The translations under genes were made by a program, and so were the position numbers. The notes under the pieces are model-generated. The model did no database searches. It saw only the letters and a program-made list of their open reading frames with translations, and was not told the origin of the DNA. A stretch of DNA of 32,459 nucleotides from Clostridiaceae bacterium HSG29 (GTDB taxonomy: Bacteria; Bacillota; Clostridia; Peptostreptococcales; Acidaminobacteraceae): the NCBI GenBank assembly GCA_030377915.1, contig JAUCFZ010000011.1:1-32459 (forward strand), in the 5' to 3' direction. Positions 4,177-32,459 of the stretch are shown piece by piece (the first letter of the stretch is position 1; each line of letters opens with the position of its first letter).

Positions 4177-4214
4177 GTGTTTGAAAATTTGAAATACTAG
4201 AATTAATGAATAGT

Positions 4215-4229: not shown

Positions 4230-4249
4230 CAAATTTTTTAAATTAATTC

Positions 4250-4278: not shown

Positions 4279-4337
4279 ATGACTGTAGAGCTGTAGGATA
4301 GCTGAACAGAGAATGGTATTTGTGAAGGAGTGATGAT

Positions 4338-5426: not shown

Positions 5427-5429
5427 ATA

Positions 5430-6551: not shown

Positions 6552-6589
6552 TATAAATATATGTAATTGCGAAACAGAATATTAACAAC

Positions 6590-6617
6590 TTGGTATTAAA
6601 ATAACGTATTATATAAG
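6590..6617 (+). promoter_or_regulatory. Possible promoter for the symporter gene
   Basis: TTGGTA, a 16-base spacer, then TATAAG. It would give a leader of about 125 bases carrying the palindrome at 6653. There is no terminator between the preceding gene and the symporter, so read-through is also possible. Confidence 0.35.
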
Positions 6618-6652
6618 AACACCGATTAATTGAGTTATACCAGTAAATAAAA

Positions 6653-6671
6653 ATTTTGAATAATTCAAAAT
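6653..6671. promoter_or_regulatory. Perfect 9-1-9 palindrome, candidate operator
   Basis: ATTTTGAAT and ATTCAAAAT flank a single A. Perfect dyad symmetry over 19 bases in the leader of the symporter gene suggests a dimeric regulator site, perhaps for the GntR protein encoded at 8660. The link to that regulator is inference. Confidence 0.4.
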
Positions 6672-6690
6672 AAACGAAAAAAGTTACTGA

Positions 6691-6720
6691 TTGCAATAGT
6701 TTGTATAGTTTTGCAATTAG
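6691..6720. repeat. Direct repeat TTGCAAT(T)AG, two copies 20 bases apart
   Basis: TTGCAATAG at 6691 and TTGCAATTAG at 6711 start two helical turns apart, just before the ribosome site of the symporter gene. TTGCAA is itself palindromic and recurs at 8600 in the promoter region of the GntR gene. This may be a shared operator element or chance in AT-rich DNA. Confidence 0.3.
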
Positions 6721-6750
6721 CAAAAGATTATATTATATAAGGAGGAAAAT

Positions 6751-8175: not shown

Positions 8176-8255
8176 TGAGAAAACACAATTTCAGATAGTT
8201 TAATAAAAAAATTTAAAGAAGTATGGTTATATGTTATTTGTTTTGGATTAGAATG

Positions 8256-8287
8256 AAATAACAAATAACAAATAACAAATAACAAAT
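8256..8287. repeat. Tandem AAATAAC repeat (about 4.6 copies) with an upstream complementary arm
   Basis: Four perfect copies of the heptamer AAATAAC start at 8256, 8263, 8270 and 8277, then a partial AAAT. GTTATTTGTT at 8233-8242 is the reverse complement of a repeat junction, so the transcript can fold into several alternative 10-bp hairpins. It is probably a slippage-prone tract; no function is assigned. Confidence 0.8.
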
Positions 8288-8303
8288 ATGTGATAATTAT
8301 CTT

Positions 8304-8339
8304 AAGCGGTTTGGAGAGTAAAATTTCTAAGCCGCTTTT
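8304..8339 (+). terminator. Strong hairpin terminator after the symporter gene
   Basis: AAGCGGTTTGGAGA pairs with TTTCTAAGCCGCTT over 14 positions, with three G-T pairs, around a loop of about six bases. A short TTTT run is read at the end of the stem. The T-tract is weak but the stem is long and GC-rich for this genome. Confidence 0.7.
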
Positions 8340-8345
8340 AAGGTT

Positions 8346-8537
8346 TTGAAACTATATTTAAAGTATCTAGTATTAGGATATACACTAACTTCTATAGGAT
8401 TATTTTCACTAGTACCTTTACTTAAAGTATTAAGTATACCAGCAATAAGAGCTAGAGTAATTACATTATTTATTGCTTTCGTGATTGTTTCATTAATGAC
8501 AAAATCATATAGACTAGAAAATATTAAAGAAGAATAA
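8346..8537 (+). CDS. Possible small hydrophobic protein, 63 residues
   Basis: The frame starts with TTG directly after a terminator hairpin, with no visible ribosome site and no clear promoter. The product would have two hydrophobic segments (about residues 5-27 and 35-52) and a charged tail ending in ENIKEE. Leucine is often CTA and isoleucine often ATA, unlike the neighbouring genes. It could be a small membrane protein, the 3' remnant of a larger gene, or a chance frame. The family is not recognised. Confidence 0.3.
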   Translation: MKLYLKYLVLGYTLTSIGLFSLVPLLKVLSIPAIRARVITLFIAFVIVSLMTKSYRLENIKEE

Positions 8538-8617
8538 ACTAAATTAAGTTTATTGAGAGCTTTATCGTGTTAAATAAATAACACAATTTTATTAGTTTAT
8601 TGCAAATGTTGTATGAA

Positions 8618-8626
8618 TGTTATAAT
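8618..8626 (+). promoter_or_regulatory. Extended -10 promoter of the GntR regulator gene
   Basis: TGTTATAAT forms an extended -10. A TTGCAA at 8600 lies 15 bases upstream and could act as a short-spaced -35. The transcript would begin near 8633, which supports the downstream ATG at 8660 as the start of the regulator. Confidence 0.55.
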
Positions 8627-8659
8627 ATAGACGTAGATTATAGAAAGCGTGGAGAAAAT

Positions 8660-9358
8660 ATGATAAAACCAGCTAAAAGAAAGAATTTATATCAAGAAGT
8701 GTCACAGCAGATTATTGGCTTTATAAAAGAGGGAATATGGGTACAAGGGGAAAGAATTCCATCAGAAAGTGAACTTTCAAAAAGTTTTGAAATTAGTAGA
8801 AATTCAATGAGAGAAGCAATTAAAGCTTTAGAATTAACTGGGGTTTTATCTTCAAAATCGGGAACAGGAACTTTTGTTGCAGAATTTGCTCTTCAAAATA
8901 TTTCTAAATTAGAATTAGTAAATGATATTCAAAATAATTATAATGTTTTAGAATTAATGGAAACTCGTTTAATGATTGAACCAGAATTAATTTATAAAGC
9001 TATTGAAGTGGCAAGCGAAGAAGATATTCGAAAATTGGATAATGTTCTTGATGAAGTTAATAATTATATTGAAAAAAATGGATATACAGTAGATGTAGGA
9101 TTATCATTTCATATGGAAATTGCTAAGATTTCAGGAAATAAAATTCTTTATAATTTTATTCAATCTCTTAAAAATCAATTGATTGCACAAAGGGGAGATT
9201 TTATTTTGAAGCATATTGATGAAGAATTATTAGATTCAGAGTTACGTGAACATGGCGAAATGCTAGAGTGTTTTAAAAAGAAAAATCCTCAAGAAGGGTA
9301 TGATTTGATGAAAAAACATTTAAAAAATTCTATTGAATCTATAAAATTAATAGAATAA
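8660..9358 (+). CDS. GntR family regulator, FadR subfamily (FCD domain)
   Basis: The protein has 232 residues. The ATG at 8660 is preferred over in-frame codons from 8600 on because the likely promoter overlaps those, and GTGGAG lies just before 8660. Residues 10-75 form the winged helix, with helix-turn-helix around 37-56 (SELSKSFEISRNSMREAIKAL) and the wing GTGTFV. The C-terminal all-helical FCD ligand domain shows the conserved His of HMEIAKISGN, LREHGEML and MKKHLKNSI, which usually hold a metal and a carboxylate ligand. FadR-type proteins generally repress local catabolic or transport genes until a small organic acid binds. Its position beside the symporter and opine-dehydrogenase genes suggests it controls them. 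Confidence 0.88.
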   Translation: MIKPAKRKNLYQEVSQQIIGFIKEGIWVQGERIPSESELSKSFEISRNSMREAIKALELTGVLSSKSGTGTFVAEFALQNISKLELVNDIQNNYNVLELMETRLMIEPELIYKAIEVASEEDIRKLDNVLDEVNNYIEKNGYTVDVGLSFHMEIAKISGNKILYNFIQSLKNQLIAQRGDFILKHIDEELLDSELREHGEMLECFKKKNPQEGYDLMKKHLKNSIESIKLIE

Positions 9359-9384
9359 AATAATAGCGATTGATGAATATTAAT

Positions 9385-9435: not shown

Positions 9436-9730
9436 CAATAAACAAAAACTTTGAAAAGGCAAGTATGTTACTGATTTTTACTACAGAGAACTGGATTAGC
9501 TGAGAACCAGGTGAAAATAATGACTGAAAATCTCCTTTGAGTTGATAGCTGAAAATAAGTAAGCTAATTCGGGTTAGTATCCGTTACAAATGCTTGAGTA
9601 TAAAATAATTTATTATTCGTACTTAATAAGATAGTTATTGTGAAGTAATTATAAAAATGAGTGGTACCACGAGAAAAATCTCGTCTCAGCAAATAGAAAA
9701 AATTCTGTTTGTTGAGACGAGATTTTTAGT
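9436..9730 (+). ncRNA. T-box leader, leucine specifier (leuCDB-cimA)
   Basis: The 388-base gap before leuC is occupied by a T-box riboswitch. The AG-rich start of stem I (CAGAGAACTGG near 9484) is followed by the specifier region, where CTC at 9532-9534, a Leu codon, sits after TGAAAAT and before CTTTGAGTT. The T-box itself is GAGTGGTACCACGAG at about 9659-9673. It folds with CTCGTCTC into the antiterminator: GAG/CTC, the seven-base bulge TGGTACC, then ACGAG/CTCGT. Bulge TGGT would pair with a tRNA ending ACCA, as tRNA-Leu does. Uncharged tRNA-Leu should allow read-through into leuC. The specifier assignment comes from position and agrees with the genes. Confidence 0.92.
9677..9727 (+). terminator. 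T-box attenuator terminator before leuC
   Basis: AATCTCGTCTCAGCAAA pairs with TTTGTTGAGACGAGATT (one G-T pair), then a T-rich run. The 5' arm includes the CTCGTCTC used by the antiterminator, so the two structures exclude each other. Confidence 0.9.
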
Positions 9731-18063: not shown

Positions 18064-18290
18064 TAAATATTTATATTGAAAATGATGGAGAGCATAGATT
18101 AACTTATTTATAGAGAGTTGATGGTTGGTGAAAATCAATAATAAGTTTTTTTATTTCTCGCTCCTGAATTTAAATTTTGAAATTAGTAGGAATTTATGGG
18201 TAGTTCCATTATAGACTTTAAGTGATCGTAGATAACAAAGGTGGTACCGCGGAATAATATTCGTCCTTTAACAAGGGCGTTTTTTGTTTT
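18064..18290 (+). ncRNA. T-box leader, leucine specifier (leuA)
   Basis: The gap between ilvB and leuA holds a T-box. TAGAGAGTTGATGGTTGGTG gives the stem I start and apical part, and CTC at 18157-18159 (Leu) precedes GCTCCTGAATT, the usual context of a specifier codon. The T-box AAGGTGGTACCGCGG is at 18238-18252, with bulge TGGT matching the ACCA end of tRNA-Leu. A terminator with a run of T follows. Confidence 0.92.
18262..18286 (+). terminator. T-box attenuator terminator before leuA
   Basis: CGTCCTT pairs with AAGGGCG (one G-T pair) around TAAC, then six T. The 5' arm overlaps the sequence pairing with the T-box in the antiterminator. Confidence 0.85.
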
Positions 18291-19887: not shown

Positions 19888-20793
19888 ATGAAGAAAATTA
19901 TATCCATTATGTTAATGATTTTATTAATTGCAAGTTTTGTAACTGGTTGTGGAAATGATAAGAAAGAGGAAGAAAGTGGAAAAGTCGATATAGAAACTAG
20001 TGGCAATGAAATGACAATAAAAGATGAGGATAACGAAATGGTTGTATCAACGAATCTTAAGAAAAGTGTTGATTTGCCAGAAGGATATCCTGATGATATC
20101 GTTCCAATTTATAATGATTTATTTTTAATGGCAGCTTCAAAAAACTCAGATGAATCATATATGGTTGTTGGACTTACAAATGATGATTATAGTAAAGTTG
20201 CAAAGTTTTATGATAATGCGTTAGAAGATGCAGAAGTTATAATGAATTTTTCAGATGAAAATGGCTATAATAATATGGGAGAATATAAAGGTTATACTTA
20301 TACAATACTTGCAAATGATGAACAAAGCGATGATCTAGATTATAAAACAACAGTTAATATAATTTTAGTTCCAGGAAGTACTAAAATGGAGATACCATCT
20401 GATGACGAAAAACCTGATCTTTCTACTGAAACAAATAATAGTAGTGCTTCGAATGAGATAGTTATTCCTGAGGGCAAAGAAATACCAAAAGATTATCCTG
20501 AAGATATATTGCCTTTTGAAAATGGTGAGGAAACTGAATTAGCTAGAATAATGAATCAAAATGGGCAAAAAATGCTTGGATATATGTCTACAAGTGAAAT
20601 TGAAGATGTACATTATTATTATGAAAATTTATTGAAAGATAGTTCAACTTATCTAGTTTTAAATGATTCAGAAAATGATAAAGAAATAGTAGTTGCCGTT
20701 GATGATTATCAATTTAGAATATTACTTCATAGGAATGATAAATCAACAGGTGAAGATTTAAAATTTAAAACATTGATTCAGATTATATATTAA
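19888..20793 (+). CDS. Lipoprotein with two tandem homologous domains
   Basis: The protein has 301 residues. A lipid signal peptide is clear: two Lys, a hydrophobic core and the lipobox VTGC with Cys21, followed by GND. An acidic linker leads to two similar halves, about residues 63-165 and 196-301. Both begin with a DYPEDILP-type motif (EGYPDDIVP and KDYPEDILP), continue through a tyrosine-rich helix (KVAKFYDNAL, DVHYYYENLL) and end in strands closing with YKTTVNIILV or FKTLIQIIY. It should sit on the outer face of the membrane. GAAAGGAG precedes the ATG. No terminator separates it from leuA. The family is not recognised and no enzyme motif is seen. Confidence 0.85.
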   Translation: MKKIISIMLMILLIASFVTGCGNDKKEEESGKVDIETSGNEMTIKDEDNEMVVSTNLKKSVDLPEGYPDDIVPIYNDLFLMAASKNSDESYMVVGLTNDDYSKVAKFYDNALEDAEVIMNFSDENGYNNMGEYKGYTYTILANDEQSDDLDYKTTVNIILVPGSTKMEIPSDDEKPDLSTETNNSSASNEIVIPEGKEIPKDYPEDILPFENGEETELARIMNQNGQKMLGYMSTSEIEDVHYYYENLLKDSSTYLVLNDSENDKEIVVAVDDYQFRILLHRNDKSTGEDLKFKTLIQIIY

Positions 20794-20835
20794 AGGATTG
20801 TAATTCGAATGACATCGTTTTCACATAAAAAGCAA

Positions 20836-20864
20836 TTGACTTCCAAATGCATTAATTATATTAT
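20836..20864 (+). promoter_or_regulatory. Promoter of the methyltransferase gene
   Basis: TTGACT, a 17-base spacer, TATTAT, ending 28 bases before the ATG. Confidence 0.75.
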
Positions 20865-20892
20865 TAAAATACAATTGGAAGGGGATAAATAG

Positions 20893-21540
20893 ATGCAGAA
20901 GTGCAAGATATGTGGTTCGGAGTGTTTGAAGCACTTATATAATGAAAAGAGTAATACGAATTACTATTTTTGTGAAGTTTGTGAATTTGTTTTTCAAGAT
21001 GATAATGAGATAGTATCTTTAGAAAAGGAAAAAGAAATTTACGATTTGCATGATAATAGTTTCGAATCCAAAGGTTATGTAGATATGTTTGAAAATTTCA
21101 TTGATAAAGCAATAAAGCCTTTTATTCAAAATAAAGGCAATGTATTAGATTTTGGAAGTGGTCCAGGACCTGTGTTAGCAAAAATTCTTGAAAATCAAGG
21201 ATGGAATGTTAAAATATTTGATCCTATTTATGATGACAATGATGATTATTTAAATTATAAATATGATTTGATTACATCTACAGAAGTTTTTGAACATTTT
21301 TCGAATCCGCTAAAGGAATTAGAAAAAATTTCGAAATTATTAAATAAAAACGGTGTTTTGGCGATTATGACTATATTAAGACCCAAAACAATGGATGAAT
21401 TTAAAGAATGGTGGTATATTAGAGATGTCACTCATATTAGTTTTTATTCACAAAAAACGTTATATTTAATGGGAAAGATTTTTGGATTAAAAATGGTATA
21501 TAATGATAATAAAAGATTAATTACATTTAAAAAGTTATAA
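20893..21540 (+). CDS. Class I SAM-dependent methyltransferase with N-terminal zinc ribbon
   Basis: The protein has 215 residues. Four Cys (CKICG near residue 4 and CEVCEF near residue 28) form a likely zinc ribbon. The Rossmann methyltransferase core follows, with motif I VLDFGSGPGPV (about 84-94), an acidic residue after strand 2 (IFDPIYDD) and the STEVFEHFSNPLKEL segment typical of the Methyltransf_23 group. Near the end, WWYIRDVTHISFYS is also common in this group. Substrate unknown; small molecules, sugars or proteins are all possible. GGAAGGGG precedes the ATG, and the gene has its own promoter and terminator, so it is a single-gene unit. Confidence 0.85.
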   Translation: MQKCKICGSECLKHLYNEKSNTNYYFCEVCEFVFQDDNEIVSLEKEKEIYDLHDNSFESKGYVDMFENFIDKAIKPFIQNKGNVLDFGSGPGPVLAKILENQGWNVKIFDPIYDDNDDYLNYKYDLITSTEVFEHFSNPLKELEKISKLLNKNGVLAIMTILRPKTMDEFKEWWYIRDVTHISFYSQKTLYLMGKIFGLKMVYNDNKRLITFKKL

Positions 21541-21564
21541 AAGCCTCCCCCCGAGGCTTTTTTT
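21540..21564 (+). terminator. Terminator of the methyltransferase gene
   Basis: AAAGCCTC pairs with GAGGCTTT around five C, then a T-run to 21564. It starts in the stop codon. Confidence 0.92.
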
Positions 21565-21565
21565 G

Positions 21566-21595
21566 TTGTCTAGAAAAGTGTATTAATGATATAAT
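21566..21595 (+). promoter_or_regulatory. Promoter of the sigma-54 activator gene
   Basis: TTGTCT, an 18-base spacer, then TATAAT preceded by TGA (extended -10). Confidence 0.65.
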
Positions 21596-21628
21596 TCATA
21601 GAAAAGAGACGGTAACGGAGGAGATATT

Positions 21629-23488
21629 ATGGGAAACAAATTAGGAATAATTGCAACGGATGTTGAGATGAAAAAGGCTATAGAAAAATTGTATCCCGAC
21701 GAAACTCAATCCGGGAAATTTATTATTGAAATTTTAGATCAGGAGCAAATAGATGAACAAGGGAAGTGGCTTGAAAATAAAGGTGCTAGTGTAATTATTG
21801 GGCGAAGCGGAACTTATGATAGAAGTGTTGAAAATGTTTCGGTTCCTCTTTTAAGGTTAAGAGTTACTACAGCAGACATTTTTAATGCTTTAATAGAAGG
21901 AACTAAATTTAAGAAGAAAATAAACCTTATTATTTGGGAAGGTATATTTTTTGACAAATCATGGCTTAAGATGATTTCGGATGAAGTAGAGATTTATAGC
22001 TTTAAAAACGGAGGGGATATTGAAAAAATTTATATTGAAGCAATAAGTGGCGATTCTGACTGTGTTATAGTTGGAGGCGGCGTTGTTTGTTCTTTTGCTA
22101 GACGTGATGATATTTCTTCTGTGTTTTTGAATGCATCCGATGAATCGATTATAGAAATTATTAATCATGCAGAGGAAGTTTTAGTTAATCTTAAAAATGC
22201 TCAATATCAACATGAATTATTGTCAAAAATGTTAGATAATGTGAGAGATGCAGTTATAGCAATTGATGAAAATGAAGAAGTTCAATTATTTAATGAACGT
22301 GCTCAAAATATTTTAAAAGTTGGAATGGTACGTATAATAGGGAAAAAACTTTCTGAAGTACTGCCTTATTTTAGTTTTTTAAAAGATGATTTAATGCTTC
22401 ATAAAGAGACAAAAGACGAACTTTTACGAATTAGATCTTTAGTAATAACTTATAGTACATCGTTAATATGGGAAGATCATAAAATAAAGGGGATATTGCT
22501 AACTTTTCAAGATACTACAAGACTTCAAATGCTTGAACAGAAAATTAGACGAGAACTTAATAAAAAAGGGTTAGTGGCAAAATATAATTTTAAAGATATA
22601 GTTTATGTTGATGAAACTATGAGTGAGATAATTAGAAAAGCTAAAATGATTGGAAGAAGTGAATCTGCTGTTGTAATTTATGGTGAGAGTGGTACTGGGA
22701 AAGAATTAATGGCTCAAAGTATTCACAATATTAGTGATAGAAATAAAGCACCATTTGTTGCTATTAATTGCGCTGCATTGTCCGAATCGCTTTTAGAAAG
22801 TGAGCTTTTTGGATATGAGGAAGGTGCTTTTACTGGAGCGAGAAAAGGTGGAAAACCTGGTTTATTTGAATTAGCACATGGTGGAACAATTTTTTTAGAT
22901 GAAATTAATTCTATTTCTAAAGGTTTGCAAGGGAAACTTCTTAGAGTAATTGAAGAAAAAGAAGTTATGCGCTTAGGTTCGGATTATATTATTCCGTTAA
23001 ATGTTAGAATAATTAGTGCTTCTAATGAAGATTTAAAAGCGATGATACAGGAGAAAACTTTTCGTAGCGATTTATTTTATAGATTAAATAGCTTTGAGAT
23101 TATTATTCCGCCGCTTAGAGAAAGAAGAACGGATATTGAGCCTTTATTTAGATTTTTTCTTAAGGAGTTTCAATTAGATGAAAAAATCAAATGGCCTAGC
23201 AAAGAAGATTTTGATAAATTGATATTACATGATTGGTTAGGGAATGTTAGAGAACTTAGGAATGTTGCTGAGCGGTATGTTTTATTTAATGAGATTGATT
23301 TATTTCAACCTAATGAAAGTCAATTAACAAAAGTATACGATGATACAATAGATTTAAAAGAAATCTATAATCTGATTGATGAAAGGATAATTTCACAATT
23401 GATTAGGAGCGGTCTTACAAAAAATGAAATTGCTAAAAAATTGGGAATTAGTAGAGCAACACTGTGGAACAAAACGAAAAATGTCTAA
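21629..23488 (+). CDS. Sigma-54-dependent transcriptional activator (PrpR_N, PAS, AAA+, Fis-type HTH)
   Basis: The protein has 619 residues. The N-terminal PrpR_N-type sensor (about 5-190) is followed by a PAS domain (about 196-300). The AAA+ core has Walker A GESGTGKE (352-359), the sigma-54 contact loop GAFTGA (399-404) and Walker B with Asp424-Glu425. The DNA-binding helix-turn-helix is at 599-614 (NEIAKKLGISRATLWN). All key residues are present, so it should remodel sigma-54 polymerase. GGAGGAG precedes the ATG. The next operon starts from a consensus -24/-12 promoter 93 bases after this gene, with a candidate enhancer palindrome overlapping its stop codon. It is very likely the activator of that operon, responding to a small acid or acyl-CoA-type signal. 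Confidence 0.93.
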   Translation: MGNKLGIIATDVEMKKAIEKLYPDETQSGKFIIEILDQEQIDEQGKWLENKGASVIIGRSGTYDRSVENVSVPLLRLRVTTADIFNALIEGTKFKKKINLIIWEGIFFDKSWLKMISDEVEIYSFKNGGDIEKIYIEAISGDSDCVIVGGGVVCSFARRDDISSVFLNASDESIIEIINHAEEVLVNLKNAQYQHELLSKMLDNVRDAVIAIDENEEVQLFNERAQNILKVGMVRIIGKKLSEVLPYFSFLKDDLMLHKETKDELLRIRSLVITYSTSLIWEDHKIKGILLTFQDTTRLQMLEQKIRRELNKKGLVAKYNFKDIVYVDETMSEIIRKAKMIGRSESAVVIYGESGTGKELMAQSIHNISDRNKAPFVAINCAALSESLLESELFGYEEGAFTGARKGGKPGLFELAHGGTIFLDEINSISKGLQGKLLRVIEEKEVMRLGSDYIIPLNVRIISASNEDLKAMIQEKTFRSDLFYRLNSFEIIIPPLRERRTDIEPLFRFFLKEFQLDEKIKWPSKEDFDKLILHDWLGNVRELRNVAERYVLFNEIDLFQPNESQLTKVYDDTIDLKEIYNLIDERIISQLIRSGLTKNEIAKKLGISRATLWNKTKNV

Positions 23489-23520
23489 TTATTAAAACAT
23501 AGTGTTTAATAAAGTAGACA
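23482..23520. promoter_or_regulatory. Inverted repeat, candidate enhancer site for the sigma-54 activator
   Basis: TGTCTA at 23482 mirrors TAGACA ending at 23520; over the two 18-base arms 14 positions are complementary around a TAG centre. The centre lies about 82 bases upstream of the -24 GG, a normal distance for an enhancer-bound activator. Confidence 0.5.
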
Positions 23521-23554
23521 AAAATGTTTAAAAATTAAAAAATATCGTGACGAA

Positions 23555-23578
23555 AACGGGCTTAAAGCCTGTTTTTTG
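23555..23578 (+). terminator. Terminator of the activator gene
   Basis: ACGGGCT pairs with AGCCTGT (one G-T pair), followed by a T-run. It sits immediately before the sigma-54 promoter, isolating the two units. Confidence 0.8.
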
Positions 23579-23580
23579 TT

Positions 23581-23597
23581 TTGGCACATAACTTGCT
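23581..23597 (+). promoter_or_regulatory. Sigma-54 (-24/-12) promoter
   Basis: TTGGCACATAACTTGCT matches the consensus TTGGCAC-N5-TTGCT at every defined position; GG at 23583 and GC at 23595 have the required 12-base phase. It drives the operon beginning at 23630. Confidence 0.95.
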
Positions 23598-23629
23598 TTA
23601 TTAATACTTAGAATATAAGGAGGAAAGTA

Positions 23630-24283
23630 ATGAAAAAAGGAGATTTTATTTGGGGTGGGCTATTTTTAGCTTTTTGTATTATTTTAATTATACCAAGCAC
23701 TCGGGAAGCTTTTATCACTTTTACGGCAACTTATAAGTTAATTGGAGGATTTTTAAAATTTTCAGTATTAGCATCTATGGGTGAATTATTAGCTAGACGT
23801 GTGGGAAGTGGAGAATGGACTTTTCCAAGTTATTTTGTTACACGTGCGGTAATTTGGGGCGTGCTTGGAATGGTAATTACCATAATATTTACTATTTTTG
23901 CAACTGGTGTTACAAAAGCACAAGCTATTCACTTATTACCATTTGATGGCGTGGCAGTTGGATTTGCTTTCTTTACAGCTACATTGATGAACGCAACATT
24001 TGCTCCTACATTTATGTATACGCATCGTATTTCGGATACATATTTAGATATGAAGCATGAAGGAGTAAAAGATATTACGCTTACAAAGGTTGTTAAACGT
24101 ATCGATACCGCAGGATTTGTTACATTTGTTGTTGTGAAAACGATTCCATTTTTCTGGATTCCAGCTCATACATTAACATTTTTATTACCTAGTGAATATC
24201 GTGTTCTTGCAGCTGCAATGTTATCAATTGCGCTTGGTTTGATTTTAACAATTTCAAAGAGAAAACAGTCAAAAACAGCTTAA
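23630..24283 (+). CDS. Integral membrane protein of unknown family, first gene of the sigma-54 operon
   Basis: The protein has 217 residues with about six hydrophobic segments (near 8-25, 33-52, 67-95, 102-125, 155-178 and 185-205). Loop features include MGELLARRVGSGEW, the TFAPTFMYTHRISDTYLDMK segment with His, Arg and Asp, and a basic C-terminus. AAGGAGG precedes the ATG. I do not recognise the family. As first gene of an operon for 2-oxoacid oxidation and acyl-phosphate energy conservation, it could move the starting amino acid or the organic acid product, but nothing in the sequence proves transport. It is 15 bases from butyrate kinase. Confidence 0.85.
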   Translation: MKKGDFIWGGLFLAFCIILIIPSTREAFITFTATYKLIGGFLKFSVLASMGELLARRVGSGEWTFPSYFVTRAVIWGVLGMVITIIFTIFATGVTKAQAIHLLPFDGVAVGFAFFTATLMNATFAPTFMYTHRISDTYLDMKHEGVKDITLTKVVKRIDTAGFVTFVVVKTIPFFWIPAHTLTFLLPSEYRVLAAAMLSIALGLILTISKRKQSKTA

Positions 24284-24298
24284 TTAGGAGGTTTTATT

Positions 24299-25369
24299 AT
24301 GAAAAGAATTTTAGCAATTAATCCAGGGTCGACTTCTACAAAAGTAGCTTTGTATGCTGACAAACAAGAAATGATTGTAGAAACATTAGATCATCCTGTA
24401 AGTGAAATTCAAAAGTTTGAACATGTACAAGATCAATTTGAATTTAGAAAGAATGTAATTACTGATTTATTAAAGGAAAATGGAATATCATTTGAATCGC
24501 TAGATGCTGTGGTTGGTAGAGGCGGTTTGTTGCCACCGGTTAAATCGGGCGCTTACAAAGTAAATGATGTAATGGTGGATCGATTAAAAAATAATCCTGT
24601 AGTAGAGCATGCTTCTAATCTTGGAGCGCTTATTGCTTATGAAATTGCTGAAGAAGTAGGTATTCCAGCATTTATTTATGATTCGGTTGCTGTTGATGAA
24701 CTAACTGATGTTGCTAGAATATCAGGTATGCCTTTAATTTCTAGAGCAAGTCTTTTACATGCACTTAATGCAAGAGCTATGGCGCATAAAGTTGCTGAAA
24801 AACACGGTAAAAAATATAATGAAATGAATATGATTGTGGCACATCTTGGTGGAGGAATTTCGGTTAGTGCTCATGAAAAAGGCCAAATGATTGATTTGAA
24901 TTCTGATGATGAGGGTCCTTTTTCACCAGAACGTTCTGGTAGAGTACCATGTAATAAATTAATAGATCTTTGTTATAGTGGAAAATATGATAAAAAAACT
25001 ATGAAAAAAATGCTTAGAGGGAAAGGTGGACTTTCTGCTTATCTTGGAACAGTTGATGTTCGTGAAGTTGAGAAAATGATTGAACAAGGTGATAAAGAAG
25101 CAAAATTGGTTCATGAAGCTATGACTTATCAAGTTGCAAAAGCAATTGGAGAACTTGCTACTGTTTTAAAAGGAGATATAGATGTTATTGTTTTAACTGG
25201 TGGGATTGCATATTCAAAAATGATTACTGATTTGGTTTCTGAACGCGTATCATTTATGGCACCTGTTGAAATTATGGCGGGAGAAAATGAATTGGAATCA
25301 TTAGCATTTGGAACTTTAAGAGTTTTGAATGGTGAAGAAGAAGCTAGAATATATACTGAAGAAAACTAA
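24299..25369 (+). CDS. buk: Butyrate (branched-chain fatty acid) kinase
   Basis: The 356-residue protein has the usual length for butyrate kinase. It makes ATP and a free acid from an acyl phosphate. The acetokinase-family phosphate motif NPGSTSTK is at residues 8-15, VGRGGLLPPVKSGAY follows, then HLGGGISVSAH and the C-terminal LTGGIAYSK loop. Butyrate and isobutyrate/isovalerate kinases are not separable by eye. Beside a 2-oxoacid:ferredoxin oxidoreductase and an aminotransferase, a branched-chain acyl phosphate is the likelier substrate. The phosphotransbutyrylase normally paired with this gene is absent here. TAGGAGG precedes the ATG. Confidence 0.92.
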   Translation: MKRILAINPGSTSTKVALYADKQEMIVETLDHPVSEIQKFEHVQDQFEFRKNVITDLLKENGISFESLDAVVGRGGLLPPVKSGAYKVNDVMVDRLKNNPVVEHASNLGALIAYEIAEEVGIPAFIYDSVAVDELTDVARISGMPLISRASLLHALNARAMAHKVAEKHGKKYNEMNMIVAHLGGGISVSAHEKGQMIDLNSDDEGPFSPERSGRVPCNKLIDLCYSGKYDKKTMKKMLRGKGGLSAYLGTVDVREVEKMIEQGDKEAKLVHEAMTYQVAKAIGELATVLKGDIDVIVLTGGIAYSKMITDLVSERVSFMAPVEIMAGENELESLAFGTLRVLNGEEEARIYTEEN

Positions 25370-25385
25370 GAATGGGGGAAATGAT

Positions 25386-25595
25386 ATGAAGAAAGTTCTT
25401 ATCAGAGAAGAAAGATGTAAGCAATGCGGTATCTGTGTAGATGCTTGTCCTAAAAATGCTATTTCATATAGTAGTGAGATAAATTTAAATGGATATCAAC
25501 CTGTAGTTATTGATGATGATTTATGTATTGGATGCGGAATTTGTTATACAATGTGTCCTGATTGGGTGTTTGAGATTTTAGGAGATAGGGGGTAA
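25386..25595 (+). CDS. vorD: 2-oxoacid:ferredoxin oxidoreductase delta subunit (2[4Fe-4S] ferredoxin)
   Basis: The 69-residue protein has two complete [4Fe-4S] motifs: Cys11, 14, 17, 21 followed by Pro, and Cys47, 50, 53, 57 followed by Pro. ATG 25386 follows TGGGGGAA; upstream in-frame codons overlap the end of buk. It passes electrons from the TPP site to ferredoxin. Order delta-alpha-beta-gamma is that of four-subunit VOR/KOR enzymes. The symbol assumes a branched-chain substrate. Confidence 0.85.
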   Translation: MKKVLIREERCKQCGICVDACPKNAISYSSEINLNGYQPVVIDDDLCIGCGICYTMCPDWVFEILGDRG

Positions 25596-25599
25596 TTAT

Positions 25600-26658
25600 A
25601 TGGAAGATATGATTAAAGGTAATCACGCGTTTGCAGAAGCTGCAATTAGAGCAGGTGCAACATTTTATGCTGGGTATCCAATTACACCATCTTCAGAGAT
25701 TATGGAATATCTCTCTGTTAGATTACCTGAAATAGGTGGAGTATTTATTCAAGCAGAGAGTGAAGGCGCATCAATGAATATTTTAACTGGTGCATCTGCA
25801 TCAGGAGTTAGATGTTTTACTGCATCTTCAAGTGTAGGTATGACATTAAAACAAGAAGGTATTTCTCATATGGCTGATTCATATTTGCCATTTTTAGCAA
25901 TTAATGTAGTTAGATATGGTACAGGTTTAGGAACTCTTGATACAGGGCAATCTGATTATTTAAGAGATACTAGAGGTGGCGGAAGTGGAGATTATAGAAC
26001 GTTTGTATTATCACCATATAGCCTTCAAGAAGCTGTTGAATTAATTGATCGTGGTTTTGAACTTGCTGATAAATATGGAATGGGTACTATTTTGCATACC
26101 GAAGCAGCATTAGGTCAAATGATGGAACCGTGTACTTTTCCTGAAATGAAAAAAGTTGAAAGAAGACATGGATCTATAGATGGAACATATAGTTTTGAAA
26201 GAATATCACCTCTTTATAGAGATAGACTTAAGGAAGCAATAGATGAAAAAGCAAAATATGATAGTATTAAAGAAAATGAACAAATGTGGGCAGAGGAATC
26301 TTTAGAAGATGCTGAATATGTAATAGTTGCTTATGGATTAGCTGGAAGATCAGCAACGGGAGCTGTTAAACAGCTTAGAGCAGAAGGACATAAAGTAGGA
26401 TTAATTAGACCAATAACACTTTGGCCATTTCCTGAAAAAGCTTTTGCAAAAGTGAATAAAGATGTAAAAGGATTTATTTCTGTTGAAGAAAATGCTACTG
26501 GACAAATGGTTGAAGATATTGCACTAACATTAAAGAAATCAGATAAAAGTTCAAAACCTGTTTATATGTTTGTAGACGCATTTGGTGTTCCAACAATGAA
26601 GAAAATAAAAGCTAATTTCATTAGAGTTAAAAATGGTGAAATAAAGGAGGTATATTAA
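25600..26658 (+). CDS. vorB: 2-oxoacid:ferredoxin oxidoreductase alpha subunit
   Basis: The 352-residue subunit holds the pyrimidine-binding and transketolase-C-like domains. The start NHAFAEAAIRAGATFYAGYP, the segment ESEGASMNILTGAS and DTGQSDYLRDTRGGG are typical of the VOR/KOR alpha subunit, and GRSATGAVKQLR marks the C-terminal domain. GGGGG lies before the ATG, four bases after vorD. The complex decarboxylates a 2-oxoacid to acyl-CoA with reduced ferredoxin. Branched-chain 2-oxoacid is preferred from context (kinase, aminotransferase); 2-oxoglutarate oxidation is the main alternative. Confidence 0.88.
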   Translation: MEDMIKGNHAFAEAAIRAGATFYAGYPITPSSEIMEYLSVRLPEIGGVFIQAESEGASMNILTGASASGVRCFTASSSVGMTLKQEGISHMADSYLPFLAINVVRYGTGLGTLDTGQSDYLRDTRGGGSGDYRTFVLSPYSLQEAVELIDRGFELADKYGMGTILHTEAALGQMMEPCTFPEMKKVERRHGSIDGTYSFERISPLYRDRLKEAIDEKAKYDSIKENEQMWAEESLEDAEYVIVAYGLAGRSATGAVKQLRAEGHKVGLIRPITLWPFPEKAFAKVNKDVKGFISVEENATGQMVEDIALTLKKSDKSSKPVYMFVDAFGVPTMKKIKANFIRVKNGEIKEVY

Positions 26659-26659
26659 A

Positions 26660-27403
26660 ATGGCAATAGCAAAAAAAGTACCTGAAATGCTTAGTAAGCA
26701 AATCTCTTTTTGCCCTGGTTGTGGGCATGGAGTTGTGGTAAGACTTTTAGCTGAGTGCGTTGAAGAGCTTAAAATGGAAAAAAATGTTATTTTCAATGTT
26801 GGAGTAGGTTGTTATTCTTTAGCAACGCCATCTATAGAAGCTGATAAGTTTGATACTCTTCATGGTAGAGCTTCAGCAGTTGCAACAGGATTTAAAAGAT
26901 GTAATCCTGATACTTTAGTAATTTCTTATCAAGGCGATGGAGATGCATATAGTATTGGAGTAGGCGAAAGTTTTAGTGCTGCTTATAGAAATGAAAATAT
27001 TACTGTTATTACAGTTAATAATACGAATTACGGTATGACTGGTGGACAAATGAGTGCTACTACTATGCCTGGACAAAAGACAACTACATCACCTCATGGA
27101 AGAGATTGTAATACAACTGGAATGCCAATTAAATTTCCTGAAATGGTAGCTGCTACTTTTCCTAACGCTGCTTATGTAGCAAGAGGTTCGGTAACAACAC
27201 CAAAATATGTTAATCAATTAAAAAAATATATTTTGAACGCATTTAAAGCACAGTTAAATAATGAAGGATATTCATTAATAGAGGTATTATCACCATGCCC
27301 AACAAACTGGAAAATGACTCCGCTTCAATCTCTTGAAAGAATTAATAAAGAACTAGTGGATTATTATCCTTTAGGTGAATTTAAAACAAGGAAGGAGAAA
27401 TAA
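26660..27403 (+). CDS. vorA: 2-oxoacid:ferredoxin oxidoreductase beta subunit (TPP-binding)
   Basis: The 247-residue subunit binds thiamine diphosphate through GDGDAYSIG (Asp93) and NNTNYGMTGGQ (about 120-130). Cys18, Cys21 (FCPGCGHG), Cys51 (GVGCYS) and Cys213 (PCPTNW) should hold its [4Fe-4S] cluster. AAGGAGG, inside the end of the alpha gene, precedes the ATG, one base after that gene's stop. It is complete, with no missing key residue. Confidence 0.9.
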   Translation: MAIAKKVPEMLSKQISFCPGCGHGVVVRLLAECVEELKMEKNVIFNVGVGCYSLATPSIEADKFDTLHGRASAVATGFKRCNPDTLVISYQGDGDAYSIGVGESFSAAYRNENITVITVNNTNYGMTGGQMSATTMPGQKTTTSPHGRDCNTTGMPIKFPEMVAATFPNAAYVARGSVTTPKYVNQLKKYILNAFKAQLNNEGYSLIEVLSPCPTNWKMTPLQSLERINKELVDYYPLGEFKTRKEK

Positions 27404-27405
27404 TT

Positions 27406-27945
27406 ATGAAAGAAATATTATTTGCTGGTTTAGGAGGACAAGGTATCCTTACTTCAGGTCTTGTTATTTCTCAGATTGCTGTTTCTAAAGATTTAAATGC
27501 AACATGGATTCCTCAATATGGTGCTGCAATGAGAGGTGGTACTGCGAATTGTACTGTGAAATTTGGAAATGAAATGGTTTATAATCCTGCACAAGAAGAA
27601 CCAGATATTCTTTTAGCAATGAATAATCCATCTTTTCAAAAATTTGTTGGTATGGTTGCACCAGGTGGAACTGTAGTAATAGATAGTAGTCTTGTTACTT
27701 GTGATACTAATGTGCGTGAGGATATTACTGTAATAGGTGTACCAAGTTCTGAAATGGCAATTGAAATGGGACATGCTAAAGGTGCTAATATCATAATGGT
27801 TGGTGTTATTGCAAATGTTTCAGGAGATATTACTGAAGAAGAAGGAATTAGTGGAATGAATGAAATGTTTAGAAAAAAAGGAAAAAGTAAATTTGAAGAG
27901 ATGAATACTAAAGCATTTAAATTAGGTTATAATTTCAAAAAATAG
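27406..27945 (+). CDS. vorC: 2-oxoacid:ferredoxin oxidoreductase gamma subunit
   Basis: The 179-residue subunit begins with FAGLGGQGILTSG and has the MRGGTANCTVKFG core typical of the gamma domain that binds CoA-side elements. It completes the four-subunit enzyme. AAGGAG precedes the ATG, two bases after the beta stop. No terminator follows, so transcription probably continues into the aminotransferase gene 57 bases on. Confidence 0.9.
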   Translation: MKEILFAGLGGQGILTSGLVISQIAVSKDLNATWIPQYGAAMRGGTANCTVKFGNEMVYNPAQEEPDILLAMNNPSFQKFVGMVAPGGTVVIDSSLVTCDTNVREDITVIGVPSSEMAIEMGHAKGANIIMVGVIANVSGDITEEEGISGMNEMFRKKGKSKFEEMNTKAFKLGYNFKK

Positions 27946-28002
27946 AAAAATCATGTATAATGGTTTTAAATTAAAAGAATTTATGTATTGGAGGAATTAA
28001 TT

Positions 28003-29190
28003 ATGATATCTAAAAAAATGAAGGCATCTCTTGCTAGTAGTTCTGTTATTCGAGAAATGTTTGAAGAAGGCCATAGGTTAGCTAAGATTCATGGTCCTGA
28101 GAATGTATTTGATTACAGTATAGGAAATCCAAATGTAAAGCCACCGGAAAGAGTTAAAACAGCTATTAAAGAAATTCTTGATGAAGAAGATGCAAATTTT
28201 GTTCATGGTTATATGAGTAATTCTGGTTATCCAGATGTGCGTGAAGCAATTGCTCAAGATCTTAATAAAAAACATGGTTTAAATCTTTCGTTTAAAAATA
28301 TTGCTATGTCTGTTGGAGCAGGTGGCGGTTTAATTGTTGTATTTAAAACAATTTTGGATCCAGGTGATGAAGTAATTACATTTGCACCATATTTTGGACC
28401 ATATAGAGCTTATATTGATGATTGTCAGAGCAAACTTGTAATTGCTGAATCTCATAAAGGTACTTTTGAACCAAATTTAAAAACACTTGAAGCAGCAATT
28501 ACTCCAAAAACGAAAGCTCTAATTATAAATAATCCGAATAATCCTACAGGAGTTATTTATAAAGAAGATGCAATTAAAGGAATAGCTGAACTTCTTACAA
28601 GGAAATCGGAAGAATATGGTCATACTATTTATGTTGTTTCTGATGATCCTTATAGAGAAATAGTTTATGATGATATTGAAGTTCCATATATGCTTAATTA
28701 TTATACAAGTACTTTTGCTGTTTATTCATATAGTAAATCGCTTTCTTTACCTGGAGAAAGAATTGGATATATTGCTTTTTCACCAGAGATAGAAGAAGCA
28801 GAAGAAATAGAGCAATGTTTAAGTAATGCAACAAGAAATATGGGCTTTACTAATGCACCGTCATTATTTCAAAGAGTAATTATTAAATGCTTAGATGAAA
28901 CTGTTGAAGTTGATGTTTATAAAAGAAATAGAGATTTGCTTTATAACCATTTATTGAGTTTAGGATTTGAGAGTGCAAAACCAGAAGGTGCATTTTACTT
29001 ATTTGCTAAATCATTAATTGAAGATGATAAAGAATTTGTAAAAGCTGCAAAAAAATATAATCTTCTTCTTGTGCCAGGATCAACATTTGGTTGTTCAGGA
29101 TATTTTAGAGCATCATACTGTATTTCGTATGATAAAATTGAAAAATCATTAGCAGCTTGGACTAAGCTTGCAAATGAATTTAAAAAGTAA
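28003..29190 (+). CDS. Class I/II pyridoxal-phosphate aminotransferase
   Basis: The 395-residue fold-type I aminotransferase starts at ATG 28003, seven bases after GGAGGA; an upstream TTG at 27988 is part of that ribosome site. NNPNNPTG at 176-183, the DDPY cofactor-ring motif and the Schiff-base Lys245 in YSYSKSLSLPGERIGY are present, and the conserved C-terminal Arg is likely in YFRASYCIS. As last gene of the VOR-buk operon it likely makes the 2-oxoacid for the oxidoreductase from an amino acid; substrate preference (branched-chain, aromatic or other) cannot be read. A poor TATAAT at 27956 may add a promoter. Confidence 0.9.
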   Translation: MISKKMKASLASSSVIREMFEEGHRLAKIHGPENVFDYSIGNPNVKPPERVKTAIKEILDEEDANFVHGYMSNSGYPDVREAIAQDLNKKHGLNLSFKNIAMSVGAGGGLIVVFKTILDPGDEVITFAPYFGPYRAYIDDCQSKLVIAESHKGTFEPNLKTLEAAITPKTKALIINNPNNPTGVIYKEDAIKGIAELLTRKSEEYGHTIYVVSDDPYREIVYDDIEVPYMLNYYTSTFAVYSYSKSLSLPGERIGYIAFSPEIEEAEEIEQCLSNATRNMGFTNAPSLFQRVIIKCLDETVEVDVYKRNRDLLYNHLLSLGFESAKPEGAFYLFAKSLIEDDKEFVKAAKKYNLLLVPGSTFGCSGYFRASYCISYDKIEKSLAAWTKLANEFKK

Positions 29191-29253: not shown

Positions 29254-29263
29254 AATTGGAAAG

Positions 29264-29292
29264 TTGACAGGTATAAACCTGAATGTTATAAT
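29264..29292 (+). promoter_or_regulatory. Full-consensus promoter with no gene behind it
   Basis: TTGACA, a 17-base spacer, TATAAT, also with TGT before the -10. This is the strongest promoter in the window. No coding frame follows for almost 400 bases. Confidence 0.85.
29268..29281. promoter_or_regulatory. Palindrome inside the promoter spacer, candidate operator
   Basis: CAGGT and ACCTG flank ATAA. It overlaps the end of the -35 and most of the spacer, where a repressor would block polymerase. Confidence 0.45.
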
Positions 29293-29298
29293 AAACTT

Positions 29299-29573
29299 GT
29301 AAATCAGAAAATTTAGGGGGAGTTTATGAGTGTAATTTTGTAATTAATAGTAAAAGAATATTTTAGAGTTCACTAGTTAGCAAAGCAGTATTATATACTT
29401 TTGTTGTTTTGTTGTGAAATCTATATTGACTATTAGATTATGAATTGCCATTTATATATTCCTTAATTATAAAAAATAATTTATGATTATATTGATTTTG
29501 ATTAACTATAAATGTTTTTGATAAGTTATTAAAAAAGGATTTGGCTGTGATTGTATGTAATCGCAGTTTTTTT
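29299..29573 (+). ncRNA. Candidate small RNA of about 275 bases
   Basis: The stretch between the consensus promoter and a good terminator has no open frame beyond a few codons. A well-placed AGGGGGAG precedes an ATG at 29326, but that frame stops after five codons (M-S-V-I-L). The unit may be a small RNA, a leader left by a decayed gene, or a short-peptide transcript. No known RNA family is recognised. Confidence 0.4.
29545..29573 (+). terminator. Terminator of the gene-free transcription unit
   Basis: CTGTGATT pairs with AATCGCAG (one G-T pair) around six bases, then seven T. From 29574 to the next gene I see only AT-rich sequence, with AAGGAG at 29675. Confidence 0.85.
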
Positions 29574-29689
29574 GTGTTAAAAATAATAATAATAAAATAA
29601 TAAGAATATATTTTGAGAATTAAGTTCATAATCTAAAACAAAAAAAGAAGTAGAAGCAAGGAAATCTTGTTATGAAGGAGAAATGAACA

Positions 29690-31612
29690 GTGAAAAATGA
29701 TAAAACACTAACCATATTGGGTTACAAAGAAATTATAGAATCAGTTAAACTAAGGACGTCAAGTAGTTTAGGCAAAAAATTAGCGGAAGAAATGATACCT
29801 AGTGTTGAACCGCATATTGTATTAGAAAGATATGAAGAGGTAAAAGAAGCAGTAAAAATTATTAATGAAGGAACTGGGCTTGGGTTAGGCGGTATTAATG
29901 ATATTACCCCATTTATTAAAAAGATTGAAAAAGGTGCTTTTTTACAACCGGAAGAATTGATTAAAGTTTCAGATTTCTTAAGAAGCATTAGAAACCTTAA
30001 AAAATCAATAAAGCGATATGAGTTTATTGCACCAGTACTTTTTTCTTATTCAACAAGTTTAGGATTATTTAAAACGATTGAAAATGATATTGAATATTGT
30101 ATTGGAAATGGTATTGTTCGTTCAAGAGCTAGTAGTACTCTTGGGAAAATCAGAAGAAAAATCGAATCACTACAGAGTAAAAGAATTGATAAATTAAATA
30201 AATTTTTATCAGCAAATAAGAATTCGAAATATCTTCAAGAAAATTATTATAGCCAAAGAGATAATCGTTATGTTGTTCCTATTAAGACGTCTTCTAGAAA
30301 ATTTGTTGATGGAACAATTATAGATTCATCAGCGTCAGGTTCAACCGTTTATATTGAAATAGATTCGATTAAAGATTTAACAGTAGAAATTATTATGTTA
30401 AAAGCTCAAGAGACTGAAGAATGTAATCAGATTCTAAGAAGGCTTTCAGAGGTGATTAATGAGCGTATTGATGAAATATGGAATGCAATTCATATTCTCG
30501 GGAAATATGATTTTATAATGGCAAAAGGAAAATATTCTGTTTCTATAGGTGGAAATGAAATTGAAATCAGAGATGACGAAACAATTAATTTAGTTAAAGC
30601 AAGACATCCTATGCTAGGGAAAGATGCTGTACCATTAAATGTACAGATAGGTACAGATTATAGAACACTTATTATTACAGGCCCTAATACTGGAGGTAAA
30701 ACAATTACGCTTAAAACAGTCGGATTAATGGTTTTACTTACTCAAAGTGGTATTTTGCCTCCTGTGGGTAAAGGCAGTAATATTTCTATTTTCAGACAAA
30801 TTCTTGTTGATATTGGAGATTCACAGAGTATTGAACAATCTTTATCAACTTTTTCAGGGCATATGAAGAATTTAGTTGAAATTATCAAAAAATCACAACG
30901 AAGAACGCTTGTATTGATTGATGAAATAGGTACTGGTACAGATCCTAAAGATGGTGCTGCATTAGGTATTGCAATTCTTGAAGAAATTTATAATAAAGGA
31001 GCAATTACTTTATCAAGTACGCATTATAGTAAAATTAAAGAGTACAGTGAAATTCATGAAGGTTTCATTAACGCGTCAATGGATTTTGATAGAGTAACAT
31101 TAAAACCTCTTTTTCGATTGATAGTTGGTATTGCTGGTAACAGTAATGCGCTTTGGATTTCAAAAGAATTAGGACTTGCTGATAAAATTATTGAACGTGT
31201 AAATAGAATTAATTCTACACATGAGATTATAGCTGCAAGAAAAATTTCAAAGTTCTCTAAAAAGAAGAGTAGAGTAGAAGAACTTCGAAAAGAAAAGGAG
31301 GTAATTGATACAGAACGTGTTTTTTATGAGAAGGGCGATCGTGTTATTGTTAATGAAACAAAAAATCATAGTTTAATTTTTGAACATAATGTTAAAGAAA
31401 AGAAAGTAATGCTATTCAGAGATGGTAAATACGAAGAAGTGAATGAAAAACGTGTAACTTTAGATAATAGGGCGGAAGTTCTTTATCCGGTTGGATATAA
31501 TTTAGATCAACTTTTCAAATCATTTAAAAGTAGAAAACTCGAAAAGGATATTAGTAAGGGAAGATTTAAAAACTTAAAAGAATTAAATGAACGTCTAAAT
31601 TCAATAAATTAA
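29690..31612 (+). CDS. MutS2-like ATPase lacking the Smr domain
   Basis: The protein has 640 residues, starting at GTG 29690, nine bases after AAGGAG. The N-terminal part (LGYKEIIESVKLRTSSSLGKK) and the central GTIIDSSASGSTVYIE match the MutS2 clamp region. Walker A is GPNTGGKT (331-338), Walker B ends in Asp411-Glu412 (LIDEIGTGTDP), and STHYSKIKEYS follows. Canonical MutS2 has about 780 residues and ends in a KOW-like region and an Smr nuclease domain. Here the chain ends about 100 residues after a KGDRVIV segment, with no Smr motifs. The usual PGKSNAF stretch reads AGNSNAL. It is probably a MutS2 paralogue acting on DNA or stalled ribosomes without cleavage. Confidence 0.85.
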   Translation: MKNDKTLTILGYKEIIESVKLRTSSSLGKKLAEEMIPSVEPHIVLERYEEVKEAVKIINEGTGLGLGGINDITPFIKKIEKGAFLQPEELIKVSDFLRSIRNLKKSIKRYEFIAPVLFSYSTSLGLFKTIENDIEYCIGNGIVRSRASSTLGKIRRKIESLQSKRIDKLNKFLSANKNSKYLQENYYSQRDNRYVVPIKTSSRKFVDGTIIDSSASGSTVYIEIDSIKDLTVEIIMLKAQETEECNQILRRLSEVINERIDEIWNAIHILGKYDFIMAKGKYSVSIGGNEIEIRDDETINLVKARHPMLGKDAVPLNVQIGTDYRTLIITGPNTGGKTITLKTVGLMVLLTQSGILPPVGKGSNISIFRQILVDIGDSQSIEQSLSTFSGHMKNLVEIIKKSQRRTLVLIDEIGTGTDPKDGAALGIAILEEIYNKGAITLSSTHYSKIKEYSEIHEGFINASMDFDRVTLKPLFRLIVGIAGNSNALWISKELGLADKIIERVNRINSTHEIIAARKISKFSKKKSRVEELRKEKEVIDTERVFYEKGDRVIVNETKNHSLIFEHNVKEKKVMLFRDGKYEEVNEKRVTLDNRAEVLYPVGYNLDQLFKSFKSRKLEKDISKGRFKNLKELNERLNSIN

Positions 31613-31623
31613 TTTTATTAGGA

Positions 31624-31665
31624 AACTAGTTATTATGTTATAGTATTGCATTATAACTAGTTTTT
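31624..31665 (+). terminator. Terminator of the MutS2-like gene
   Basis: AACTAGTTAT pairs perfectly with ATAACTAGTT, followed by a T-run; the stem begins 11 bases after the stop codon. Confidence 0.85.
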
Positions 31666-31707
31666 GTTTTAATAATAGTGAAAGAGATATTTCTTCCTTA
31701 GATTGTT

Positions 31708-31736
31708 TTGACAGTTGTATTATTTTATGCTAATAT
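31708..31736 (+). promoter_or_regulatory. Promoter of the ribU transcript
   Basis: TTGACA, a 17-base spacer, TAATAT with TGC before it. Transcription would begin near 31743, just before the riboswitch. Confidence 0.8.
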
Positions 31737-31759
31737 TACTTTGTAAACAAATGAAAATT

Positions 31760-31889
31760 CTTCAGGGTCGGGTTAATTTCCCAACCGGCGGTTATAGTCC
31801 GCGAGCTAACGCTGAACTGGTGTGATTCCAGTACCGACAGTAAAGTCTGGATGTGAGAAGATTATATATCCTTTTATTTTGCCCTGAAG
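31760..31889 (+). ncRNA. FMN riboswitch (RFN element)
   Basis: The closing stem P1 is CTTCAGGG at 31760 with CCCTGAAG at 31882. The family's conserved strings are present: AACCGGCGGTTATAGTCCGC, CTGGTGTGATTCCAG, and ACCGACAGTAAAGTCTGGAT followed by GAGAAG. It senses flavin mononucleotide and should terminate transcription of the riboflavin transporter when FMN is plentiful. Confidence 0.96.
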
Positions 31890-31908
31890 TTATTGACTTC
31901 AGTTTTTT
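31884..31908 (+). terminator. Riboswitch-controlled terminator before ribU
   Basis: CTGAAGT pairs with ACTTCAG around TATTG, then six T. Its 5' arm is the 3' arm of P1. As ordered here an extra antiterminator pairing elsewhere in the leader would be needed for a standard FMN-off switch; I did not identify it. Confidence 0.85.
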
Positions 31909-31927
31909 AATTTAAGGAGGAATTTTT

Positions 31928-32380
31928 ATGAATGATTCAAAGAAGTTATTATCAGTAAAAAATATGGCAAAGATTTCAATTTTATCAGTAATTGCATTTA
32001 TTCTAATGCAGATAGAATTGCCTTTACCAATATTTCCAAGTTTTTTAAAGGTTGATTTAAGTGATCTGCCTGCACTTATTGGTGGGTTTGCACTTGGACC
32101 TGCAGTAGGAATCTTAATTGAGCTATTTAAAAATTTAATGCATTTAACTAGAACAAGTACATCTGGTGTTGGAGAATTAGCAAACTTTTTAGTAGGAATT
32201 GCATTAGTTGTTCCAGCAAGTATGATATATTTTAAAAATAAGACTAAAAAAAATGCAATAATAGGATTATTAGTAGGTACAATTGTAATGGGAATAGTTG
32301 GTGGAATTTTTAATTATTTTGTATTATTACCATTTTATTTCGTTAATTACTTCATTCACGTTTTTTTCAAATTCATTTAA
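31928..32380 (+). CDS. ribU: Riboflavin ECF transporter S component, 3' end replaced
   Basis: Residues 1 to about 138 match RibU, the membrane S component that binds riboflavin and works with the shared ECF energizing module. LPLPIFPSFLKVDLSDLPALIGGFALGP, ELFKNLMHL, the SGVGELANFLVG segment and NYFVLLPFY are all in place. AAGGAGG precedes the ATG, and an FMN riboswitch lies just upstream. RibU proteins usually have about 180-200 residues with further helices after NYF-LLP. Here the match stops near base 32340 and 12 unrelated residues lead to a stop. The downstream DNA looks coding on the other strand, so the gene is broken by a rearrangement or an assembly join. Confidence 0.85.
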   Translation: MNDSKKLLSVKNMAKISILSVIAFILMQIELPLPIFPSFLKVDLSDLPALIGGFALGPAVGILIELFKNLMHLTRTSTSGVGELANFLVGIALVVPASMIYFKNKTKKNAIIGLLVGTIVMGIVGGIFNYFVLLPFYFVNYFIHVFFKFI

Positions 32381-32459
32381 CAACTCATCAAATTTTAATT
32401 CAAAAGTTTCATTAGAATGCTTTTCACTTATAGCTCTATTGCTATCATTATCATTATAT
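32327..32459 (-). CDS. 3' end of an unknown minus-strand gene (partial)
   Basis: From the right edge an open minus-strand frame of 43 codons runs to a stop at 32329-32327. The peptide is hydrophilic and helix-like, with heptad-type Leu/Glu spacing (FELKFDELLNEFEKNVNE), and ends EIKW. The last few codons overlap bases that belong to ribU, so this gene may itself have lost its true end. Its identity is unknown. Confidence 0.4.
   Translation of the reverse strand, partial: YNDNDSNRAISEKHSNETFELKFDELLNEFEKNVNEVINEIKW

Follow-up and report, generated by a model that had tools for sequence, protein, structure and literature searches.

A chimeric join, rather than a broken gene, very probably ends the ribU contig of a Clostridiaceae draft genome

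Inverted chimeras formed during multiple displacement amplification (MDA) are the closest described counterpart of the join considered here, and they were described from individual reads of a single-cell E. coli reaction (Lasken and Stockwell, 2007; PMC1855051). As reported there, 85% of the MDA chimeras were inverted (406/475), 337 of the 406 inverted chimeras joined segments less than 10 kb apart, and complementary bases were present at 93.5% of the inverted junctions within this distance. In Illumina sequencing of amplified C. elegans DNA, fragments have been reported whose two ends are inverted versions of each other (PMC4060946). The gene in which the join lies encodes RibU, the S-component of the ECF riboflavin transporter, for which solved structures exist (PDB 3p5n, 5kbw, 5kc0).

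In the present work, we have analyzed a window of 32,459 nucleotides, which is the whole of contig C235 in the draft genome of Clostridiaceae bacterium HSG29 (G000; 2.09-Mb, 266 contigs, estimated completeness 86.3%), and the edge of the window is a contig end. The original prediction offered two readings of this end: in one, ribU lost its 3' end to a true inversion or insertion, and in the other, the final 120 bases stem from a chimeric join. The recurrence of such tails at other contig ends of the draft, together with comparisons with the nearest relative compared, a genome of the same genus (G001), supports the latter, and we consider it about 93% probable that the join between ribU and the terminal tail is an artefact of some making, whether of the laboratory or of the assembly, and not a broken gene. 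The features at the contig end are the following.

31754..31866, plus strand: FMN riboswitch (RFN element) 5' of ribU (Rfam RF00050, 105.4 bits, E 9e-24, full-length)
31928..32338, plus strand: residues 1-137 (5' part) of ribU, which encodes the S-component of the ECF riboflavin transporter (Pfam ECF_trnsprt PF12822, E 9e-33; colinear with G001)
32333..32338: junction microhomology (from the junction alignment; G001 has TTTTA on either side, and the final T is presumed)
32333..32459, minus strand: probable chimeric tail, a reversed internal piece of a downstream gene, the orthologue of a 612-aa ORF of G001 (DNA and protein matches to G001)

The ribU fragment and the origin of the tail

The similarity to RibU, which was said to stop abruptly near base 32340, ends at 32338 (residue 137). 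Window positions 31706-32338 are 94.8% identical in DNA sequence to contig C19 of the relative (G001:C19 90842-91474) and the alignment stops at 32338, in agreement with alignments to seven further relatives (G013, G003, G039, G034, G012, G008, and G025), which stop at window 32337-32339 (query 638-640). The breakpoint can thus be refined to 32338/32339, with 32333-32338 common to both sides. The fragment covers 130 of the 169 positions of the PF12822 profile, short of full length, and the intact orthologue in G001 (196 aa) matches the Riboflavin uptake protein of PDB 3p5n (E 3e-33). The locus therefore resembles the known RibU proteins in its residues 1-137, in the FMN riboswitch upstream and, through G001, in a full-length orthologue, but differs from them in that the contig is without the C-terminal part, where we consider that the assembly departs from the gene. 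Among the 80 homologues listed out of 402 confirmed GTDB loci, no such truncated form is found and none ends naturally with the sequence of the tail; their matches reach at most residue 141 of the 150 in the query and mostly end at exactly 137, by which a naturally truncated or fused RibU is ruled out. The residues that the tail adds to the ribU frame (32339-32377, followed by a stop) are spurious, and ribU is best annotated as a gene left incomplete by the contig end; the cell itself would probably carry an intact copy.

The tail is 121 bp long after 32338, or 127 bp when counted from the first shared base at 32333, and its bases are open on the minus strand for a charged peptide, as originally described, of 43 residues. 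The tail is no random sequence: positions 32333-32412 match G001:C19 95473-95394 in the opposite orientation (89% over 80 bp, E 8e-22 to 3e-23), and the peptide is in frame with the 612-aa ORF of G001, to which it is identical at 20 of 27 residues. For the final 47 bases of the tail no alignment to G001 was obtained, though the frame stays open. In G001, the matched stretch is internal to this ORF, which lies on the same strand as ribU and 4.0 kb downstream, and the genes in between encode an HI0933-like flavoprotein, an EamA transporter, and a C_GCAxxG_C_C protein. Because ribU and the source of the tail share one strand at this distance, the tail of the window is both inverted and local. Fusibacter tunisiensis (L029) and the MAG SMBSF52 (L034) likewise have a homologue of the ORF on the ribU strand, downstream of that gene, and a partial one lies at the edge of locus L032. 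This gene order makes it very probable that both genes ancestrally lay on one strand and that the window joins the second of them reversed, with about 4 kb missing. A mobile-element insertion is ruled out, since the tail is part of a chromosomal ORF that lies 4 kb away in the relative. The ORF itself (L022:8767-10605) has no Pfam or NCBIfam match above cut-off, and its homologues at L029 and L034 are 26-27% identical to it.

No second copy of the window's tail was found in the draft by DNA or protein searches, and duplication is therefore not directly demonstrable for this end. A comparison of L022:5400-12800 with the draft (40 of 545 candidates scored) returned two pieces of the window and three weak short matches (C66, C236, and C136), and a protein search of the draft with the 612-aa ORF matched the tail alone at E up to 1. 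As neither the rest of ribU nor the rest of the ORF was found in these searches of the draft, the region appears to fall in an assembly gap.

Tails at other contig ends of the draft

Our survey covered 66 readable contigs of G000 (638,350 bp) and 589 kb of G001, including ~4.6 kb of N. The 66 contigs are not a random sample: they consist of the window, 20 contigs that make up C226-C246 without C235, the 12 readable contigs of C1-C20 (the other 8 consist of N alone), and 33 contigs matched by pieces of G001. Of these 33, C221, C222, and C195 were taken into the survey after their tails had been seen in G001 matches, and C199 and C162 entered it through an unrelated weak repeat match. Three contigs (C87, C188, and C135) were covered in part only, which leaves 129 true ends. 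Tails at contig ends were compared by 21-mers, with masked contigs (reading N) left out. Forty ends were anchored in G001, and three of these (C230 3', C9 3', and C130 5') were dropped because the G001 stretch ends there.

Twenty-six of the 37 ends that could be tested against G001 are colinear with it to within 6 bases, and the other 11 carry tails of 24-132 bp. Four of the 11 tails have their match within 15 kb on the same G001 contig, in reversed orientation or in a different order, as listed here.

C235 3' end (window): inverted, 4.0 kb
C195 5' end: inverted, 6.6 kb
C222 5' end: inverted, 12.9 kb
C221 5' end: direct, 7.1 kb

The remaining 7 have no placement as a local rearranged join. Two (C15 3' and C130 3') map slightly further out on the same strand and look like plain indels or a repeat; four (C2 3', C5 3', C6 3', and C222 3') have no placement in G001; and the C166 5' tail, an end in common with C226 and C190, maps to a different G001 contig.

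Two further contigs, C199 (span ~4.2 kb) and C162 (~0.7 kb), end in inverted copies of their own interior. Exact inverted self-copies of at least 50 bp occur in the 66 surveyed contigs only at C222:1-81, C199:1-127, and C162:8920-8989, and the 589 kb of G001 contain none. As counted by ends, 3 of 129 in G000 vs 0 of 48 in G001, the contrast is weak and is not a clear difference by itself; the argument is that all three inverted self-copies lie flush with a contig end, while the direct repeats in G000 are all interior. The terminal 119 bases of C195 are an exact reverse copy of C204:3154-3272, followed by one differing base and then a short match to ~127, so that this tail, which differs from C204 by one base, is not an exact shared node. 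The tails of C195, C222, C199, and C162 are extra copies, since C204 is colinear with G001 through the site copied by the C195 tail and the other three contigs each hold both copies. For C199 and C162, which were judged without comparison to G001, a real inverted duplication may be present. When the local tails are taken together, 5 are inverted (C235, C195, C222, C199, and C162) vs 1 direct (C221), a proportion that points in the direction expected of MDA but comes from a small sample. Apart from the window, the tips that look chimeric are C195:1-132, C222:1-77, C199:1-127, C162:8920-8989, and C221:1-121.

Another regularity is seen in the length of the sequence that contig ends have in common. 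Exactly 127 terminal bases are shared flush between the ends of C229 and C213, C242 and C3, and C221 and C167; the ends of C226, C166, and C190 share 127 bases with an offset of 1-4 bases; and the 3' end of C5 has 127 bp in common with the interior of C149. Values of k of about 127 are commonly used in assembly, and a de Bruijn assembly whose largest k is 127 leaves shared ends of this length. The tail of the window, at 127 bases from the first shared base, would then correspond to one graph node, and if it is read in this way, the normal path of the downstream gene is probably also present in the reads.

Chimeric artefact or genuine rearrangement

The join at 32338/32339 resembles the inverted MDA chimeras, as these are described in PMC1855051, in having an inverted second segment, an intervening deletion, a span of less than 10 kb, and a few complementary bases at the junction. 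Joins of this type have a second segment inverted relative to its genomic orientation, which is what the G001 reference indicates for the tail; their segments are typically less than 10 kb apart, compared with 4.0 kb here; and they have 2-21 complementary nucleotides at the junction, where the window has TTTTA(T), 5-6 bp. Among random junctions simulated in the corresponding 75% AT stretch of G001, at least 4 shared bases were seen in 3.8%, at least 5 in 1.5%, and at least 6 in 0.6%; the microhomology at two other junctions is 6 bp for C221 and 4 bp for C222. The window differs from the described chimeras, which were seen in single reads, in that its tail of 121 bp stands on an assembled contig, for which we infer the amplification.

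An MDA-like mechanism is in our analysis the most likely form of the artefact, at roughly three quarters. A strand copying through ribU would leave its template at TTTTAT, re-prime on the same 5-6 bases of the displaced strand ~4 kb further on, and be extended backwards, giving an inverted chimera with an intervening deletion, as in phi29 multiple displacement amplification. Where true coverage is low, as it may be here, the assembler would continue along the chimeric reads across a single graph node of 127 bases, and the contig would stop at the point at which the downstream gene's normal copy enters that node too. Counting against this account are the tail of the window, of which no second copy was found in the draft and whose last 47 bases are unaligned; the one-base difference between the C195 tail and C204; the join of C222, with a span of 12.9 kb, beyond the usual 10 kb, and 4 bp shared; and the seven tails not placed as local joins.

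Within the range of artefacts, and thus overlapping in probability with the main reading, a chimera made in another way, by library preparation or ligation, or a pure mis-join by the assembler, is an unlikely but appreciable alternative. Joins between sequences 4-13 kb apart would need molecules longer than a short-read insert, which speaks against such an origin, as do the microhomology at the join and the 5:1 proportion of inverted local tails, both of which fit priming on a displaced strand. In its favor, the MDA origin of G000 is itself our inference, and inverted chimeras are reported to arise in ligation-based nanopore preparation too (PMC13141652).

The genuine rearrangement that comes nearest to the observed geometry is a true inversion of the 4-kb segment that separates ribU from the downstream gene; it would cut ribU and could be fixed or polymorphic in the population. 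Inverted, local, and with microhomology, the join does fit a microhomology-mediated inversion, and a node that joins two paths is also expected from a mixed population. However, the beginning of the join and the end of the contig are 127 bp apart; a reciprocal junction, which an inversion requires, was recovered from the draft neither by the DNA search (40 of 545 candidates scored) nor by the protein search; and similar tails are present on several other ends, four of them as extra copies. As an inversion moves sequence and does not duplicate it, these duplicated tails argue against it, and the inversion or insertion envisaged in the original prediction is not supported. We regard it as highly improbable that ribU is cut by such an inversion, and give an equally small chance to its more limited form, in which a microhomology-mediated 4-kb inversion disrupts the riboswitch-controlled ribU in some cells of the source population. 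An invertible element giving phase-variable on/off switching of ribU would likewise be inverted and local, at a riboswitch-controlled gene, and both orientations would coexist, but we consider it scarcely credible. Such a switch would require longer repeats at its boundaries and a recombinase. The breakpoints have only 5-6 AT bases in common, none of the 25 longest (at least 17 nt) of 81 inverted-repeat pairs in the orthologous segment (L022:5375-9575) flanks them, and the ten G001 proteins scanned, from ribU to gatC, include none named as a recombinase.

The reading of the join as an artefact averts a false claim of a destroyed riboflavin transporter, and it implies that the draft probably has several chimeric contig tips, of up to ~130 bp. 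Because such tips recur, truncations, odd fusions, and inverted fragments at the contig ends of G000 should not be taken as biology without a check.

Other differences between the draft and its relative

A larger difference in arrangement is found in contig C6 of the draft, in which positions 20081-29002 (loci L173 and L269) are inverted relative to G001:C7 57729-48809, and C6:2-18684 is colinear with 27084-45714 of the same G001 contig. A genuine inversion of ~12 kb or a chimera on a larger scale would account for this arrangement.

From its base 1 onward, the window runs colinear with C19 of G001 (64964-91474), apart from small indels and two blocks, at 4130-9384 and at 29254-31705. The first block, of 5.2 kb, has no match in G001 at this place, where ~1.7 kb of other sequence is found instead, and it contains octopine/nopaline dehydrogenase-like and mandelate racemase/enolase-like genes, a sodium:solute symporter, and a GntR/FCD regulator. 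Within the second lies a gene of the MutS2 family (29690-31612, 640 aa; TIGR01069, E 6e-174, over profile positions 1-540 of 790 only), which is placed between an aminotransferase gene and the FMN riboswitch; G001 is without this gene at the site, where the matching flanks (C19 90830 and 90842) are ~12 bases apart. The window also has two T-box leaders, at 9442-9691 and 18076-18271, with the start of an aconitase-family gene at 9748 by the former and that of an HMGL-like gene with a LeuA dimerisation domain at 18291 by the latter.
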